From Chloroflexota bacterium (GTDB taxonomy: Bacteria; Chloroflexota; UBA11872), in assembly GCA_022824495.1 (NCBI GenBank), contig JAJDZU010000011.1:124001-188000 (forward strand): a stretch of 64,000 nt of DNA, written 5' to 3'. The translations under genes were made by a program, and so were the position numbers. Below, piece after piece: positions 2,197 to 31,409 of the stretch; within the stretch, counting starts at the first letter, position 1, and each line of letters opens with the position of its first letter. Below the pieces are notes generated by a model that saw only the letters and a list, made by a program, of their open reading frames with translations, did no database searches and was not told where the DNA came from.

Positions 2197-4839
2197 TCAG
2201 GCGGTGCGCGAAGTCGGCCAATACCGGCGCCACATCTCGCCGGGCGCCGCACGCAGCGATCTTACACGCTGGCGAAAACGGTCCCGGATTTCTCCCGGCC
2301 GTCCAACGAGTCGCCGAACTCCGACATCCGCCACAAAGGCCAGCAGCGCAATGGTGAGCAACTGGGCCCAGCCAATTTGCGTGGCGCCGTTGCCACGTAA
2401 CGCCAGCGCTGCCAGGTCGCGGCTGGATTCAATGCTCACGCCGCCGGTAATCGCCGCGGCACGCCGCAACACGCGGTGGTCAGGCGTGATGTGGCCAACT
2501 TCGGCTCCGACCGGAACGACGAGACCTGAGTTGGCCGCGCGTTCCGTCCCGGTGTCGTCCACCTGGGTCACGCGGATCTCGTAGACCCCGGGTGCGAGCC
2601 CGTTAACGTTGCCCTGATAACGGCCGGGACCCACCTGCTCGACGATCATCGTCTGCGCGGTCCCATCCGGGCCAGCGAGCGAGACCCTGGTCTCAAGTCC
2701 ATTCAGAAACTGCCCGGCTGTGTCAACGGCATCGACCTCAATCACGGCAACGCCGTCGGCGTACGAGGCCTCGATCTGAGGACTGTCGCCGAGACCACCC
2801 GATAACGGACTGACCCACTGAATCGCCTGCCGCAGTAAGGTGGCAAAGCCGTCCCAACCCAGCCATTCCTCAGCCCAGTCCGAACCCGCGTCGGATGTCC
2901 AGGCCACAGCGCGACCGCGACCGTACTGCCACTGCGCCAGAATCGGATCGTTGTTGTCGGAACTCAACACGATTTCGGCCGTGGGCTTGGCGCGAGTTCG
3001 CACGTAGCCCCGCAAGTCGGGCAACTCCTGCCCCGCCAGCCCGCCTGTCAAGATTGGGCTGGGTGCGTCCATCCGAGGCTGAAACTCTCGTTCGACAACC
3101 GCGAACTCACCGGCTGTCAGCGTTTCCTGGGTCAAGACCCGAGGAATCGATCGCGGGTCCGGCACATAGTAATAGCGACCGTTGCCGATGCGGGCGATGC
3201 GCTCGAGGAGTTCCTGGTCGGACTGCGTGCCAATCGCGATCGACGAGACCGTGATGTCCCGCCGACGTAGCGAACGCGTCAGGCCGTCGAAGTCGCCGTA
3301 GTGGGCGCGCCCGTCGGTCAGCAGCACCACGTGTTTGACCGAGGCGCTGACCTGGTCCAAACGTGACCGTGCGAAGAACATGGCGCGCGCAAGATCGGTG
3401 GACGTCCCGATTTGAATCCCCCGAATGCGGTTGACGGCTGCCGTCACCTCCGCCGCGGATGCCAACTCGCGCGGCGGCACGACCCATTGCGAGTCGATGT
3501 CGAACGTCATCACGCCGAGAATGTCTCCCTCTTCCAGCAGGTCCACCGCGTCCACCGCCGCCTCAATCGCCATGTCGATCTTGGCGGCCCCTTCGCTCGC
3601 GCCCTCGGCCATGCTGGAGGACCGGTCGATGACTAGAACGAGCGCTAGGCGGGGTTCGGGCGTCTCCTCGGTGGGGTCCGACCACACCGGCAGTGCTTCG
3701 TCCATGGCGGTGCCCTGGTATCCGCCAGCGGCGAAGCTGTCCGGTCCGCCCAGAACCACCAGCCCGCGCCCCCCCGCCACGTGCGCGCGCAAGGCTTCGA
3801 GCGCGTTTGGCTCAATGGCTTCGGCGGGAACATTGGAGACCACGACGGCCTCGAATTGCCCGAGATCAACACTGCCGATCGCGCTGGGCGCTACCTCCCG
3901 AACCTCGAAGCCGGCGGCCCGCAGCGCTGCCCGGACTTGTGAAGTGTCGCCGATCGTGAGTACGCGACCTGGCTCAGCGACGCGAATGAACGCCTCGGCA
4001 ACGTTGTTGGCCAGCCGAGGATCAGCGTCTTCAAGAAGCTCAGCCCGCAGCCGGTGAAAGCCAGGCGCCAAGCTATCCAACTCAACACCATAGGTGCGTG
4101 TACCTGTCGCAACGACGACTGGACCGTCGCTGATCTGGCGCTCACCGTCCCAGAGGCGTAGTCGCGCCGTGGTCCGCCGCTGCGAGGCGATTCGAACGCG
4201 TGCCTGGACTGCCACGCCGCTGTGCACGATGTTCGGGACTTCAACTGCTTGAAGCACGAGGTCGGCGCCGCGAGTCGCCGCGGCGGGCACGACCGAAATC
4301 GGCACGCCACGGGCGGCGGCCGTCTGAACGGCGGACTCGAGCCCCAGTCCGGCGCCGGCGCCATCAGAAATCAGCACGAGCTGCCCACCTGCGTCCGGAT
4401 CGAGCAGGCCGAGCGCGGTCAGAATCCCTGCCTCATAGTTGCTGTCGTGCCCCGGCAGGTCTGAGCGCAGGGCCGGGGCCTCGTCCAGGCGCTGGGGCGC
4501 GGCCAGCACCGCCGTGCTTGCGCCAAATTGGACAGCCCCCACCGATGCGTCGGCCCCGAACGCCTGAACGAAGGAATCAATGATCGCGTGGGCATTTGCC
4601 CGCTCCGCCAAGAGCACGCTGTCGGACGTATCGACGACGAAGACGGTGGCGGGCCGGGTGTCGCGGCCGACTGCGAAGCCGGCCAGGGCAAGAACCAACG
4701 CGGTCAAGCCGATCAGGCGCAGAAGGGTCGAGATCCCAAGGCGGATCCGCGAGAGACGGGTGACGCTGAGCGATGTCAGCCAAATGGCCGCGGGCAACGC
4801 CGCCAGCAAAATGAGCAACCACGGCCGTTCCAGACCCAT
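2197..4839 (-). CDS. Membrane protein with two VWA-type domains and a GATase1-like domain
   Basis: An 880-aa protein, last gene of the MoxR/VWA cluster. Two membrane helices lie at the N-terminus (about 7-25 and 37-58). A first VWA-like domain follows with a MIDAS-type DTSDS (VFVVDTSDSVLL, about 67-78). Next is a class I glutamine-amidotransferase-like domain (FEAVVVSNVPAEAIEPNALE ... GRGLVVLGGPDSFAAGG, about 330-385). A second, better-formed VWA domain (LALVLVIDRSSSMAEG, about 398 onward) has an intact DxSxS. A beta-rich region and a last helix near residue 800 precede a basic tail. This matches large COG5426-type proteins in Bat-like operons that are thought to assemble metal-dependent complexes at the membrane. 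It follows its upstream neighbour by 3 bases. The exact substrate of such clusters is unknown. Confidence 0.85.
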   Translation of the reverse strand: MGLERPWLLILLAALPAAIWLTSLSVTRLSRIRLGISTLLRLIGLTALVLALAGFAVGRDTRPATVFVVDTSDSVLLAERANAHAIIDSFVQAFGADASVGAVQFGASTAVLAAPQRLDEAPALRSDLPGHDSNYEAGILTALGLLDPDAGGQLVLISDGAGAGLGLESAVQTAAARGVPISVVPAAATRGADLVLQAVEVPNIVHSGVAVQARVRIASQRRTTARLRLWDGERQISDGPVVVATGTRTYGVELDSLAPGFHRLRAELLEDADPRLANNVAEAFIRVAEPGRVLTIGDTSQVRAALRAAGFEVREVAPSAIGSVDLGQFEAVVVSNVPAEAIEPNALEALRAHVAGGRGLVVLGGPDSFAAGGYQGTAMDEALPVWSDPTEETPEPRLALVLVIDRSSSMAEGASEGAAKIDMAIEAAVDAVDLLEEGDILGVMTFDIDSQWVVPPRELASAAEVTAAVNRIRGIQIGTSTDLARAMFFARSRLDQVSASVKHVVLLTDGRAHYGDFDGLTRSLRRRDITVSSIAIGTQSDQELLERIARIGNGRYYYVPDPRSIPRVLTQETLTAGEFAVVEREFQPRMDAPSPILTGGLAGQELPDLRGYVRTRAKPTAEIVLSSDNNDPILAQWQYGRGRAVAWTSDAGSDWAEEWLGWDGFATLLRQAIQWVSPLSGGLGDSPQIEASYADGVAVIEVDAVDTAGQFLNGLETRVSLAGPDGTAQTMIVEQVGPGRYQGNVNGLAPGVYEIRVTQVDDTGTERAANSGLVVPVGAEVGHITPDHRVLRRAAAITGGVSIESSRDLAALALRGNGATQIGWAQLLTIALLAFVADVGVRRLVGRPGEIRDRFRQRVRSLRAAPGEMWRRYWPTSRTA

Positions 4840-30094: not shown

Positions 30095-30175
30095 TACCGG
30101 GGATGGGATTCGAACCCATACGACCGAAGTCCCGGGATTTTAAGTCCCGTGCGTCTACCGTTCCGCCACCCCGGC
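30095..30175 (-). tRNA. tRNA-Leu (UAA)
   Basis: The full cloverleaf folds by eye. The acceptor stem is GCCGGGG/CCCCGGT, the D stem GCG/CGC, and the anticodon arm CGGGA-CTTAAAA-TCCCG with anticodon TAA. The long type II variable arm is GAC-TTCG-GTC and the T arm ATGGG-TTCGAAT-CCCAT. The discriminator is A, as expected for leucine. The 3' end continues as CCG, so CCA is not encoded and must be added by the CCA enzyme. The length of 81 bases is slightly short for tRNA-Leu because the variable arm is compact. Confidence 0.95.
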
Positions 30176-30372: not shown

Positions 30373-31002
30373 CTACCAGGCGACCGGCTTGGTGATCACG
30401 CCATGGACGTCGGTGAGGGTGCGAGGCAGCTGGCTCTTGCGGAGGTGGCTCTTCCAGAGCCGACGCACGTAGGTCGCCGATTCAACCAGGTCGTTGTGGG
30501 TGCTGGTTTGGGAGTCGGGATTGACGACCACGACGCGAAGTCCAAGGTCGCGGCTGACGTAGCGGATCGGGGCGGCGAGGTCGGAGTCGTTGGAAACGAC
30601 GACGGCCTGCTGGTAATCGCCGGTGAAGCCGTCGACGAGGAGGCGGGTTGCGAGGTTGACGTCGGAGCCCTTCTCTTCGGTGTCGCGGATGCGGACGTAG
30701 GCGGGGTCGCCCGGTTTCGGGCTGGCCAGCGGGCGGTACTTGATGCGTTCCCGGAACTCGCCGTAGTGGATTTCGAGACCGGGCAGCGTGCCCAAGGCGC
30801 GCAGATACGATGCTTGTCGCTCAGTCTGCGTCGGATCGTTCGGGCGTGATCGCACGAGGGCGGTGAAGTAGCAGATTCGCTGGATTTGATCGTCTGGAAA
30901 GAGCGTCTGCGCGAGTTTGCGCAGGTCCAGCCACTTGAACGTCGTGTGCTTGACAGCGCGGTTGTAGAGATTGAAGCCGTCAACGTAGAGGTTGGTCAGC
31001 AC
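30373..31002 (-). CDS. NYN domain ribonuclease-like protein
   Basis: 209 aa. The PIN-like NYN fold is recognisable by its acidic residues: Asp8 in NLYVDGFNLYNRA, Asp114 in EEKGSDVNLATRLLVDGF, and Asp139/Asp141 in AVVVSNDSDLAAPIRYV. These four positions bind Mg2+ in related RNases, and all are intact. A C-terminal basic segment (RRLWKSHLRKSQLPR) could bind RNA. The GTG start follows a GAGGGG Shine-Dalgarno embedded in a GGGGCCCC palindrome. Directly upstream are two tandem promoter-RNA-terminator units, the nearer ending 32 bases before the start codon. The natural substrate is unknown; NYN proteins process or degrade RNA, and some act in defence or toxin roles. Confidence 0.85.
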   Translation of the reverse strand: MLTNLYVDGFNLYNRAVKHTTFKWLDLRKLAQTLFPDDQIQRICYFTALVRSRPNDPTQTERQASYLRALGTLPGLEIHYGEFRERIKYRPLASPKPGDPAYVRIRDTEEKGSDVNLATRLLVDGFTGDYQQAVVVSNDSDLAAPIRYVSRDLGLRVVVVNPDSQTSTHNDLVESATYVRRLWKSHLRKSQLPRTLTDVHGVITKPVAW

Positions 31003-31022
31003 GGGGGCCCCTCAATCAGCCA

Positions 31023-31032
31023 GAGACCGCCC
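31023..31032 (-). other. Third copy of the terminator 3' arm ahead of the NYN gene
   Basis: GGGCGGTCTC, the 3' half of the unit-A terminator stem, is repeated here between that terminator and the NYN start. It could pair with the same 5' arm and form an alternative, non-terminating structure. Confidence 0.45.
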
Positions 31033-31034
31033 GG

Positions 31035-31097
31035 AAAAGACAGAGACCGCCCGGTGGGGCGGCCTCGACCCTGCCACCGAAGCAACAGGGGGGGTAT
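31035..31097 (-). ncRNA. Predicted 63-nt small RNA, unit A
   Basis: The predicted transcript begins at the A of ATACCCCCCC, seven bases after the -10 box. Hairpin 1 is CCCTGTTGC-TTCG-GTGGCAGGG (nine pairs with G-U wobbles, UUCG tetraloop). Hairpin 2 is GAGGCCGCCC-CACC-GGGCGGTCTC (ten pairs) followed by TGTCTTTT, a textbook intrinsic terminator. There is no plausible open reading frame. The single-stranded 5' C-run could pair with G-rich Shine-Dalgarno sequences. The alternative reading is a leader with attenuator for the NYN gene, whose start codon is 32 bases downstream. Confidence 0.7.
31043..31066 (-). terminator. Intrinsic terminator of RNA unit A
   Basis: The ten-pair stem GAGGCCGCCC/GGGCGGTCTC with loop CACC is followed on the minus strand by TGTCTTTT. 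Confidence 0.8.
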
Positions 31098-31103
31098 GGA
31101 GCA

Positions 31104-31132
31104 TTTATACGCGATGGCCGGCTGGCTGTCAA
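31104..31132 (-). promoter_or_regulatory. Sigma70-type promoter of RNA unit A
   Basis: -35 TTGACA (31132-31127) and -10 TATAAA (31109-31104) on the minus strand are separated by exactly 17 bases. This is an unusually perfect match for so GC-rich a genome. Confidence 0.75.
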
Positions 31133-31159
31133 GAACCGGAACGAACCAAGGATGCCCGG

Positions 31160-31222
31160 AAAAAACAGAGACCGCCCGGTGGGGCGGCCTCGACCCTGCC
31201 ACCTAAACGACAGGGGGGGTAT
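31160..31222 (-). ncRNA. Predicted 63-nt small RNA, unit B
   Basis: The second copy of the predicted RNA has exactly the same length as unit A. It starts ATACCCCCCCTGTCG. Hairpin 1 is CCCTGTCG-TTTAGG-TGGCAGGG; a T to C change relative to unit A turns a G-U pair into G-C, which supports the helix. The terminator stem is identical to unit A and is followed by TGTTTTTT, a stronger U-tract. The loop and nearby bases differ while the C7 run and the terminator are unchanged. No coding potential is seen. Confidence 0.7.
31168..31191 (-). terminator. Intrinsic terminator of RNA unit B
   Basis: The same ten-pair stem as unit A, followed by TG and six T residues on the minus strand. Confidence 0.85.
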
Positions 31223-31228
31223 GAGCCT

Positions 31229-31257
31229 TTTGTACATGATGGTCAGCGGGCCGTCAA
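31229..31257 (-). promoter_or_regulatory. Sigma70-type promoter of RNA unit B
   Basis: -35 TTGACG (31257-31252) and -10 TACAAA (31234-31229), 17-base spacing, sit at the same distance from the ATACCCCCCC start as in unit A. Confidence 0.65.
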
Positions 31258-31409
31258 GGATCCGGGTCGAGACTGAGGCGGGTCTGTAGGCCCCGCTGAG
31301 TACGCGGTAAGGAACCTGAGGGGCGACCTCAAACCGAAGTGGCGGGAGGACTCCAAGCAGCGGGTGCGCGCCGGGCGCGCGACGACCCGGCGGCACCGTC
31401 GATGACGCC

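Follow-up and report, generated by a model that had tools for sequence, protein, structure and literature searches.

Twin self-terminating small RNAs beside a HEC-09-like NYN nuclease gene: a candidate RNA-neutralised module from Chloroflexota

As read from its sequence, the locus described here appears to be a two-component module, consisting of one or two self-terminating small RNAs with promoter-like sequences and a nuclease of the NYN fold. The reading we favour, with a probability of roughly 0.6, is that the nuclease is neutralised by the RNA, the pair acting like a type III toxin-antitoxin system with an unrelated toxin fold. The window, by which we mean the whole stretch of 64,000 nucleotides analysed from a Chloroflexota contig, carries two such RNA units ahead of a single nuclease gene (Table 1).

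A preliminary description of this DNA had proposed tandem modules of promoter, small RNA and terminator, and this layout was borne out: a 105-nt direct repeat on the minus strand (31029-31133 and 31154-31258; 86% identity) recurs with a spacing of 125, and both units predict an RNA of 63 nt, measured from the predicted start to the U-tract and beginning with the same 5' sequence, ATACCCCCCC. The promoters are sigma-70-like (TTGACG-17-TACAAA at 31257-31229; TTGACA-17-TATAAA at 31132-31104); neither was reported by a strict consensus scan, because that scan requires T as the final base of the second hexamer. For the two-hairpin folds, z is -4.1 and -4.7, and none of 200 shuffles was equally stable. 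Both terminators, of 10 pairs each, were recovered among 3 terminator-like sites, against 1.9 +/- 1.4 expected from shuffles, so that the terminator count by itself does not exceed chance. The change from U-G to C-G in hairpin 1 between the copies, read at first as a sign of selection, is present, but two copies prove little in that respect. Between the end of the proximal RNA and the GTG start of the nuclease gene there are 32 nt. The spare copy of the terminator 3' arm that lies between them also occurs in relatives L015-L018 and could provide alternative pairing. On the other side of the nuclease gene, about 200 bp downstream, is a tRNA gene (30095-30175, minus strand; Rfam RF00005, 60 bits).

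Table 1. Features of the locus in window coordinates; both window RNAs are among the training sequences of the covariance models
Feature	Position	Strand	Basis
Distal -35 box, TTGACG	31252-31257	minus	Read from sequence; promoter scoring of 87 RNAs
Distal -10 box, TACAAA, 17-nt spacer	31229-31234	minus	Read from sequence
Distal small RNA, 63 nt, two hairpins	31160-31222	minus	Fold; covariance models R1 (70.3 bits) and R2 (68.3 bits)
Distal RNA, hairpin 1	31194-31215	minus	Fold
Distal RNA, terminator hairpin	31168-31191	minus	Fold
Distal RNA, tail	31160-31167	minus	Fold
Proximal -35 box, TTGACA	31127-31132	minus	Read from sequence; promoter scoring of 87 RNAs
Proximal -10 box, TATAAA, 17-nt spacer	31104-31109	minus	Read from sequence
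Proximal small RNA, 63 nt, two hairpins	31035-31097	minus	Fold; covariance models R1 (73.2 bits) and R2 (71.2 bits)
Proximal RNA, hairpin 1	31069-31090	minus	Fold
Proximal RNA, terminator hairpin	31043-31066	minus	Fold
Proximal RNA, tail	31035-31042	minus	Fold
Extra 17-nt copy of terminator 3' arm, between proximal RNA and NYN gene	31018-31034	minus	Direct repeat D2
NYN-domain nuclease, HEC-09-like, 209 aa, GTG start	30373-31002	minus	Pfam NYN, PADLOC HEC-09, fold model

The protein was assigned from profiles and a confidently predicted structure. It matches Pfam NYN (PF01936; E 6e-8, 33.7 bits against a gathering cut-off of 24.2) and, over residues 5-209, the whole length of the PADLOC profile HEC-09 (PDLC04163; 130.5 bits, E 1.4e-38), and its fold model (pLDDT 95.3) matches the NYN structures VPA0982 (2qip) and the NYN domain of MARF1; no NCBIfam family was matched. 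D8, D114, D139 and D141, which we take to be the catalytic acidic residues of the NYN domain, are invariant among 36 NYN sequences, in agreement with the intact Mg2+ site that had been claimed. HEC-09 is a candidate defence family of PADLOC, and HEC is expanded as Hma-embedded candidate in PMC12988326; PMC12447246, the one paper that came up naming HEC-09, ties it to phage susceptibility, not resistance. At the window locus the gene is not embedded among defence genes, of the Hma or any other kind: none of the 9 neighbouring proteins matches PADLOC at E 1e-4, and an ordinary defence island was rejected there on this count.

Comparison among loci indicates that the RNA is a conserved structured family. 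In alignment A5, comprising 87 RNAs from 80 loci picked as non-redundant and fitted to the covariance model, 93.8% of cells pair and 15 of the 17 base pairs are changed on both sides; the covariation score is 0.533, as against 0.236 +/- 0.009 for shuffled alignments and at most 0.150 when slid, and cells changed on both sides number 212 against 49, a level reached by no shuffle. Less weight attaches to the count of doubly changed pairs, which was also attained in 44 of 500 shuffles. Similar behaviour is noted for A1, a MAFFT alignment that was not fitted to a model and whose structure was written from the alignment itself: 11 of 17 pairs are changed on both sides, with covariation of 0.423 versus 0.254. 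A1 holds 24 hand-picked units of the 28 located (L035, L046, L059 and L063 were omitted as divergent), and it is from these that covariance model R1 was built. Thus, the covariation check set by the preliminary description came out in favour of the selected RNA structure it had claimed.

Two further properties of the 87 RNAs speak to whether the hairpins act as RNA at all. G-U pairs are frequent in the folded strand (at one pair, UG is found in 38 of the 87), and therefore the minus strand of the window is the folded one. Moreover, 46 of the 87 RNAs have upstream a promoter-like sequence with a score of 9 of 12 or better, versus 3.6% of shuffles, with the other 41 falling short of that score. 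Inverted repeats adjoining a gene of mobile elements, and duplicated in tandem, might suggest a DNA-level element, with REP-like or recombination-site-like hairpins mobilised together with NYN; however, the common G-U pairs would be impossible for the opposite strand and promoter-like sequence is enriched upstream, and we find this explanation scarcely credible.

The arrangement had been taken to be without a described counterpart, and this accords with Rfam 15, which on the window gives only the tRNA above its gathering threshold and nothing on the twin units, and which on 20 relatives gives 3 matches, none on the small RNA beside NYN. Known Rfam RNAs were rejected as candidates, the sub-threshold resemblances to the L25 leader, TTC28-AS1 and SorY lying far under the cut-offs. 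At locus L155 (2420-2501, plus strand), in a genome from the same phylum as the window, Rfam finds Ms_AS-4, an actinobacterial sRNA family (66.9 bits, gathering 50).

A less fortunate suggestion was that the run of seven C's near the 5' end targets ribosome-binding sites. Three of the seven lie inside stem 1, which corrects the earlier account, and among the 87 RNAs the unpaired C-run adjoining stem 1 varies between 0 and 5 nt. Across 39 RNA-gene pairs, the RNA 5' end pairs with the start region of its own NYN gene at -4.86 kcal/mol and with those of non-cognate genes at -4.59 kcal/mol, with a standard deviation of about 2.5; since pairing with the own start is hardly better than with others, anti-Shine-Dalgarno action was rejected. 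Nor was the complementarity to a toxin mRNA start that would mark a type I toxin-antitoxin or anti-Shine-Dalgarno arrangement found for the RNA 5' end. The broader notion of a general trans-acting sRNA, C-rich and anti-Shine-Dalgarno, that is simply carried along with NYN or undergoes processing by NYN, draws on the C-rich 5' end, on the weak resemblance of the window RNA to SorY (13 bits, far below the gathering score of 111) and on the conservation of some RNA copies lacking a nuclease. However, the variable unpaired C-run and the lack of a clear preference for the cognate start region weigh against it, and it would leave the linkage to NYN in several phyla unexplained; we judge it improbable.

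That linkage begins in the window genome itself. A third, diverged unit on another contig (80% identity over 61 nt in a DNA search) immediately precedes another NYN gene, whose protein is 63% identical to that of the window. NYN was found by protein search in 32 of 61 genomes (the own genome and 60 relatives); it is multi-copy and patchily distributed, occurring also on plasmids and prophages, and upstream of many of the relatives' genes the same layout is seen with different stems. The close relatives L010-L013 are Chloroflexi bins; L010-L012, whose NYN matches that of L015, L017 and L018, were for that reason not used when searching with the models.

Within the class, represented by 41 genomes, covariance model R2 gives 99 RNAs at E <= 0.01 and profile A3 gives 54 full-length NYN genes, 21 of the 75 NYN matches having been treated as fragments or other at 200 bits or less. 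An RNA lies upstream on the same strand at 50 of the 54, a count that is partly circular since R1 was trained on RNAs upstream of NYN; the nearest gap between RNA and NYN match has a median of 21 nt (range 3-180), and at 13 of the 50 there are at least two RNA copies. Four genes are exceptions. In G004 (L055/L116) and G017 (L067/L119), the RNA and NYN have been split by an inserted element with inverted ends, as judged by eye; the G017 insert carries a transposase, presumably IS1595-like, and its NYN gene carries a stop codon. For G008 the RNA is present by eye (L063) and was missed by the model. Only for G005:C68 (L266), with an open NYN frame, was no RNA found by eye or by R2.

Outside the class, a draw of 400 genomes from the phylum, from which one R1 training sequence (G045) came, yielded 31 NYN matches above 100 bits once split matches belonging to the same gene had been merged by hand. 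R1 places an RNA next to 20 of the 31, or 19 of 30 without the training locus; 18 of these 20 are upstream on the same strand and 2 are convergent. Together with the class count, this favours the preliminary description on its own check of whether NYN orthologues keep upstream copies. Local searching adds an RNA at G110 and G106 (R1), at G392 (R2, 26.8 bits) and, as a weak and divergent case, at G048 (R1, 21.3 bits). Inspection by eye, which is weaker evidence than a model match, adds divergent RNAs at G269, G142, G366 and G067, each with promoter-like sequence and two hairpins; the last 3 genes (G266, G099, G257) are either incomplete or lie at the edge of a contig. Short NYN fragments such as G218:C17 and G078:C59 were excluded; G078:C59 has an adjacent RNA. 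Approached from the RNA side, 17 of the 30 out-of-class RNAs of at least 37 bits adjoin an NYN match above 100 bits. Among all 49 out-of-class RNAs, 29 do not adjoin a full NYN gene, and 16 of these, below 37 bits, were set aside; of the other 13, 4 have an NYN fragment adjacent (L144, L145, L149, L153) and 9 have no trace of NYN in the fetched stretch. Of the 28 distant NYN matches, which score 45-81 bits and include one from the class (G018:C14), none has an RNA in the R1 list at E 1e-3, where six (L187-L192) were searched locally and RNAs of other types could escape.

The same association extends to mobile elements. Relatives of NYN, many of them distant, were found in 434 plasmid records, 3 phage records and 63 viral contigs. 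The 33 viral loci counted are full-length matches of at least 36% identity, none of which was in the R1 training set, and R1 (E <= 0.01) finds an adjacent RNA at 25 of them. As for the 8 that it misses, L220 and L221 are without upstream sequence, L218 is recovered by R2, and L209, L214, L215, L219 and L224 have an RNA by eye, with R2 scores of 15 bits for L215 and 21 bits for L224. Among the first 8 plasmid and phage regions, L262 and L264 match R1, L260 matches R2, and hairpin units were recognised by eye in L258, L259, L261 and L263 (for L261, R2 gives a weak 17.9 bits), while L265 is cut off at the record start. Among 9 more distant plasmid regions, L272 and L273 match R2 (36.3 and 27.9 bits), L275, L277 and L280 do so weakly (15-17 bits), L278 and L279 have an RNA by eye only, and L274 and L276 have no clear RNA by R2 or by eye. 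Taken as a whole, these comparisons indicate that the RNA adjoins the HEC-09-like NYN clade in several phyla, in any orientation.

Some of the plasmid loci have features of their own. The Shinella plasmid relative in L280 (986-1963) is annotated with an Xre/MbcA/ParS toxin-binding domain, an antitoxin type, and its upstream RNA scores 15.1 bits. On a Salmonella plasmid, L278 (798-894) has two copies of a core resembling GCGATTAAGTT plus a terminator, possibly as a pseudoknot. By eye, a core similar to GCGATTAAGTT is also present in L277 and L279, in what is apparently a second RNA type beside distant NYN.

Orientation largely decides the case of a cis-acting leader or attenuator, in which the hairpins would terminate transcription before NYN, read-through would set its level, and NYN might even cleave its own leader. 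Most class copies are indeed on the same strand, with the RNA ending a short distance before the NYN match. However, the models find convergent RNA and NYN at L155, L156, L145, L262, L264, L203, L204, L206 and L273 and divergent pairs at L197 and, weakly, L041, and divergent pairs are seen by eye at L163, L166, L167, L159, L263, L227 and L230. The L145 case is an NYN fragment at a contig start, and some convergent loci of viral or phage origin are almost identical to one another (L203, L204 and L264 score alike). In convergent or divergent placement a leader or attenuator cannot act, and the RNA is therefore a stand-alone gene. Rejected on these grounds, the leader is further disfavoured by tandem units that are each complete with a terminator at the end, and by RNAs conserved without NYN; we hold it to be very improbable. 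The suggestion in the preliminary description of an RNA-processing or autoregulatory system fares accordingly: cis autoregulation as a leader is unlikely, and RNA processing is a possible reading, but we prefer another.

RNAs without the nuclease are common. In the class, 23 of the 79 RNAs of at least 45 bits have no full NYN gene adjacent; counting all scores, 36 RNAs lie away from a full NYN gene, 13 of them below 45 bits, many maybe by chance. An NYN stump follows the orphan RNA at G014:C15, G016:C47 and G000:C7 according to the profile, and at L124 by eye, and the orphans L116 and L119 are the two insertion-split loci. L115 is without NYN, and L009 has NYN ahead of the same kind of downstream gene. 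A MerR-DUF433-like gene lies downstream of the orphans L136 (by Pfam, read as L074) and L120 (by sequence likeness), about 115 nt after the RNA in L136 and 190 nt in L120. In L136 (G000:C16; genes at 3512-4252 and 4230-4790) the second gene has a DUF5615-like match slightly below the cut-off, the two genes presumably forming a toxin-antitoxin-like pair, and related genomes carry NYN at the site.

At matched orphan sites across species, RNA identity is 84-98% and exceeds that of both flanks in 15 of 20 comparisons, one flank being conserved as much as the RNA or more in the other 5. The clearest group is L125, L127 and L128 (RNA 90-95%, flanks 53-64%); the group of L118, L121 and L126 says little, because the downstream flank beats the RNA in 2 of its 3 comparisons. 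A toxin-antitoxin pair would be expected to lose its nuclease before its RNA, and the orphans are consistent with this. RNA without NYN could, however, reflect target size alone (63 nt against 627 nt), and since NYN is a tenfold larger target the asymmetry was rejected as proof of a toxin-antitoxin system. Conserved orphan RNAs could also mean an NYN-independent function, a view to which the 9 of 30 out-of-class RNAs of at least 37 bits without NYN in the fetched stretch lend themselves.

The main rival to neutralisation is that the RNA serves as cofactor or sensor of an anti-phage ribonucleoprotein, activating or positioning the nuclease or reporting infection rather than simply inhibiting it. 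HEC-09 being a candidate defence family, and the linkage of RNA and NYN holding across phyla, this deserves a hearing, but none of 9 neighbours of the window locus matches PADLOC, many sites have the RNA without NYN, and the RNAs align over their full length with no variable guide segment seen. We consider it unlikely.

Among known systems, neutralisation would place the module closest to type III toxin-antitoxin systems such as ToxIN, CptIN and TenpIN, with which it shares an endoribonuclease-like gene and an adjoining small structured RNA; in most cases the RNA comes first and an intrinsic terminator separates the two. Their layout, as given in PMC5086642 and PMC8860590, is a single promoter, tandem RNA repeats, a terminator and the toxin gene. 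The plasmid relative from Klebsiella quasipneumoniae (L259) is type III-like in just this respect, with four 33-nt hairpin repeats (70-100% alike), then a terminator, then NYN. The window system, in contrast, is not type III as defined, because its toxin fold differs, being NYN/PIN-like and not the MazF/Kid-like fold of ToxN, and because a single promoter serving an array of repeats is replaced by two units, in both of which a promoter-like sequence and a terminator frame the RNA. Under nested-structure models the window RNA folds as a hairpin plus terminator, where type III antitoxins are repeat-encoded pseudoknots, and NYN-linked RNAs may lie downstream or divergent. The DUF3800-associated RNA motifs, too, are structured RNAs that adjoin the gene of a predicted nuclease carried by mobile elements, with another protein family and other RNA structures. 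A CRISPR-associated NYN of Bacteroides fragilis has RNase activity and a proposed role in crRNA trimming in type III CRISPR (PMC11346440), and is likewise a bacterial NYN protein for which small RNAs have been proposed as substrates in defence; here, by contrast, the small RNA is dedicated and fixed, and no CRISPR link was seen in the window region. PADLOC, whose HEC-09 profile the window protein matches whole, models the protein, and the available text of PMC12988326 makes no mention of an RNA partner. In the open-licence literature we recognised no account of an RNA beside NYN/HEC-09 and nothing joining type III toxin-antitoxin systems with NYN; most subscription papers and bioRxiv lie outside that search, so novelty is unproven.

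If neutralisation is indeed the mode of action, the small RNA, as antitoxin, would bind the NYN protein, as toxin, and block it. Several promoters and RNA copies would increase the antitoxin dose, and the terminator just ahead of the NYN start codon would hold nuclease expression low. On a stop in host transcription, as in phage infection or plasmid loss, the short RNA would run out and the nuclease would be released. In this chain we infer transcription, toxicity, direct RNA binding, inhibition and release on transcription stop. A wider proposal, to which we give slightly less than even odds, is that NYN/HEC-09 proteins may form a large unrecognised class of RNA-neutralised ribonuclease toxins across several phyla, plasmids and prophages, with at least 2 RNA architectures (one hairpin or a set of tandem repeats, each followed by a terminator) and no fixed gene order, the orphan chromosomal RNAs serving as anti-addiction antidotes against incoming NYN elements.

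For the family, the lesson is that HEC-09, a candidate defence gene, has probably lacked its RNA partner until now; the protein is therefore not to be judged alone, and its function becomes directly testable. If the RNA is an antitoxin, RNA-controlled toxins would extend beyond the MazF-like fold, and one small model would find the system in many genomes.
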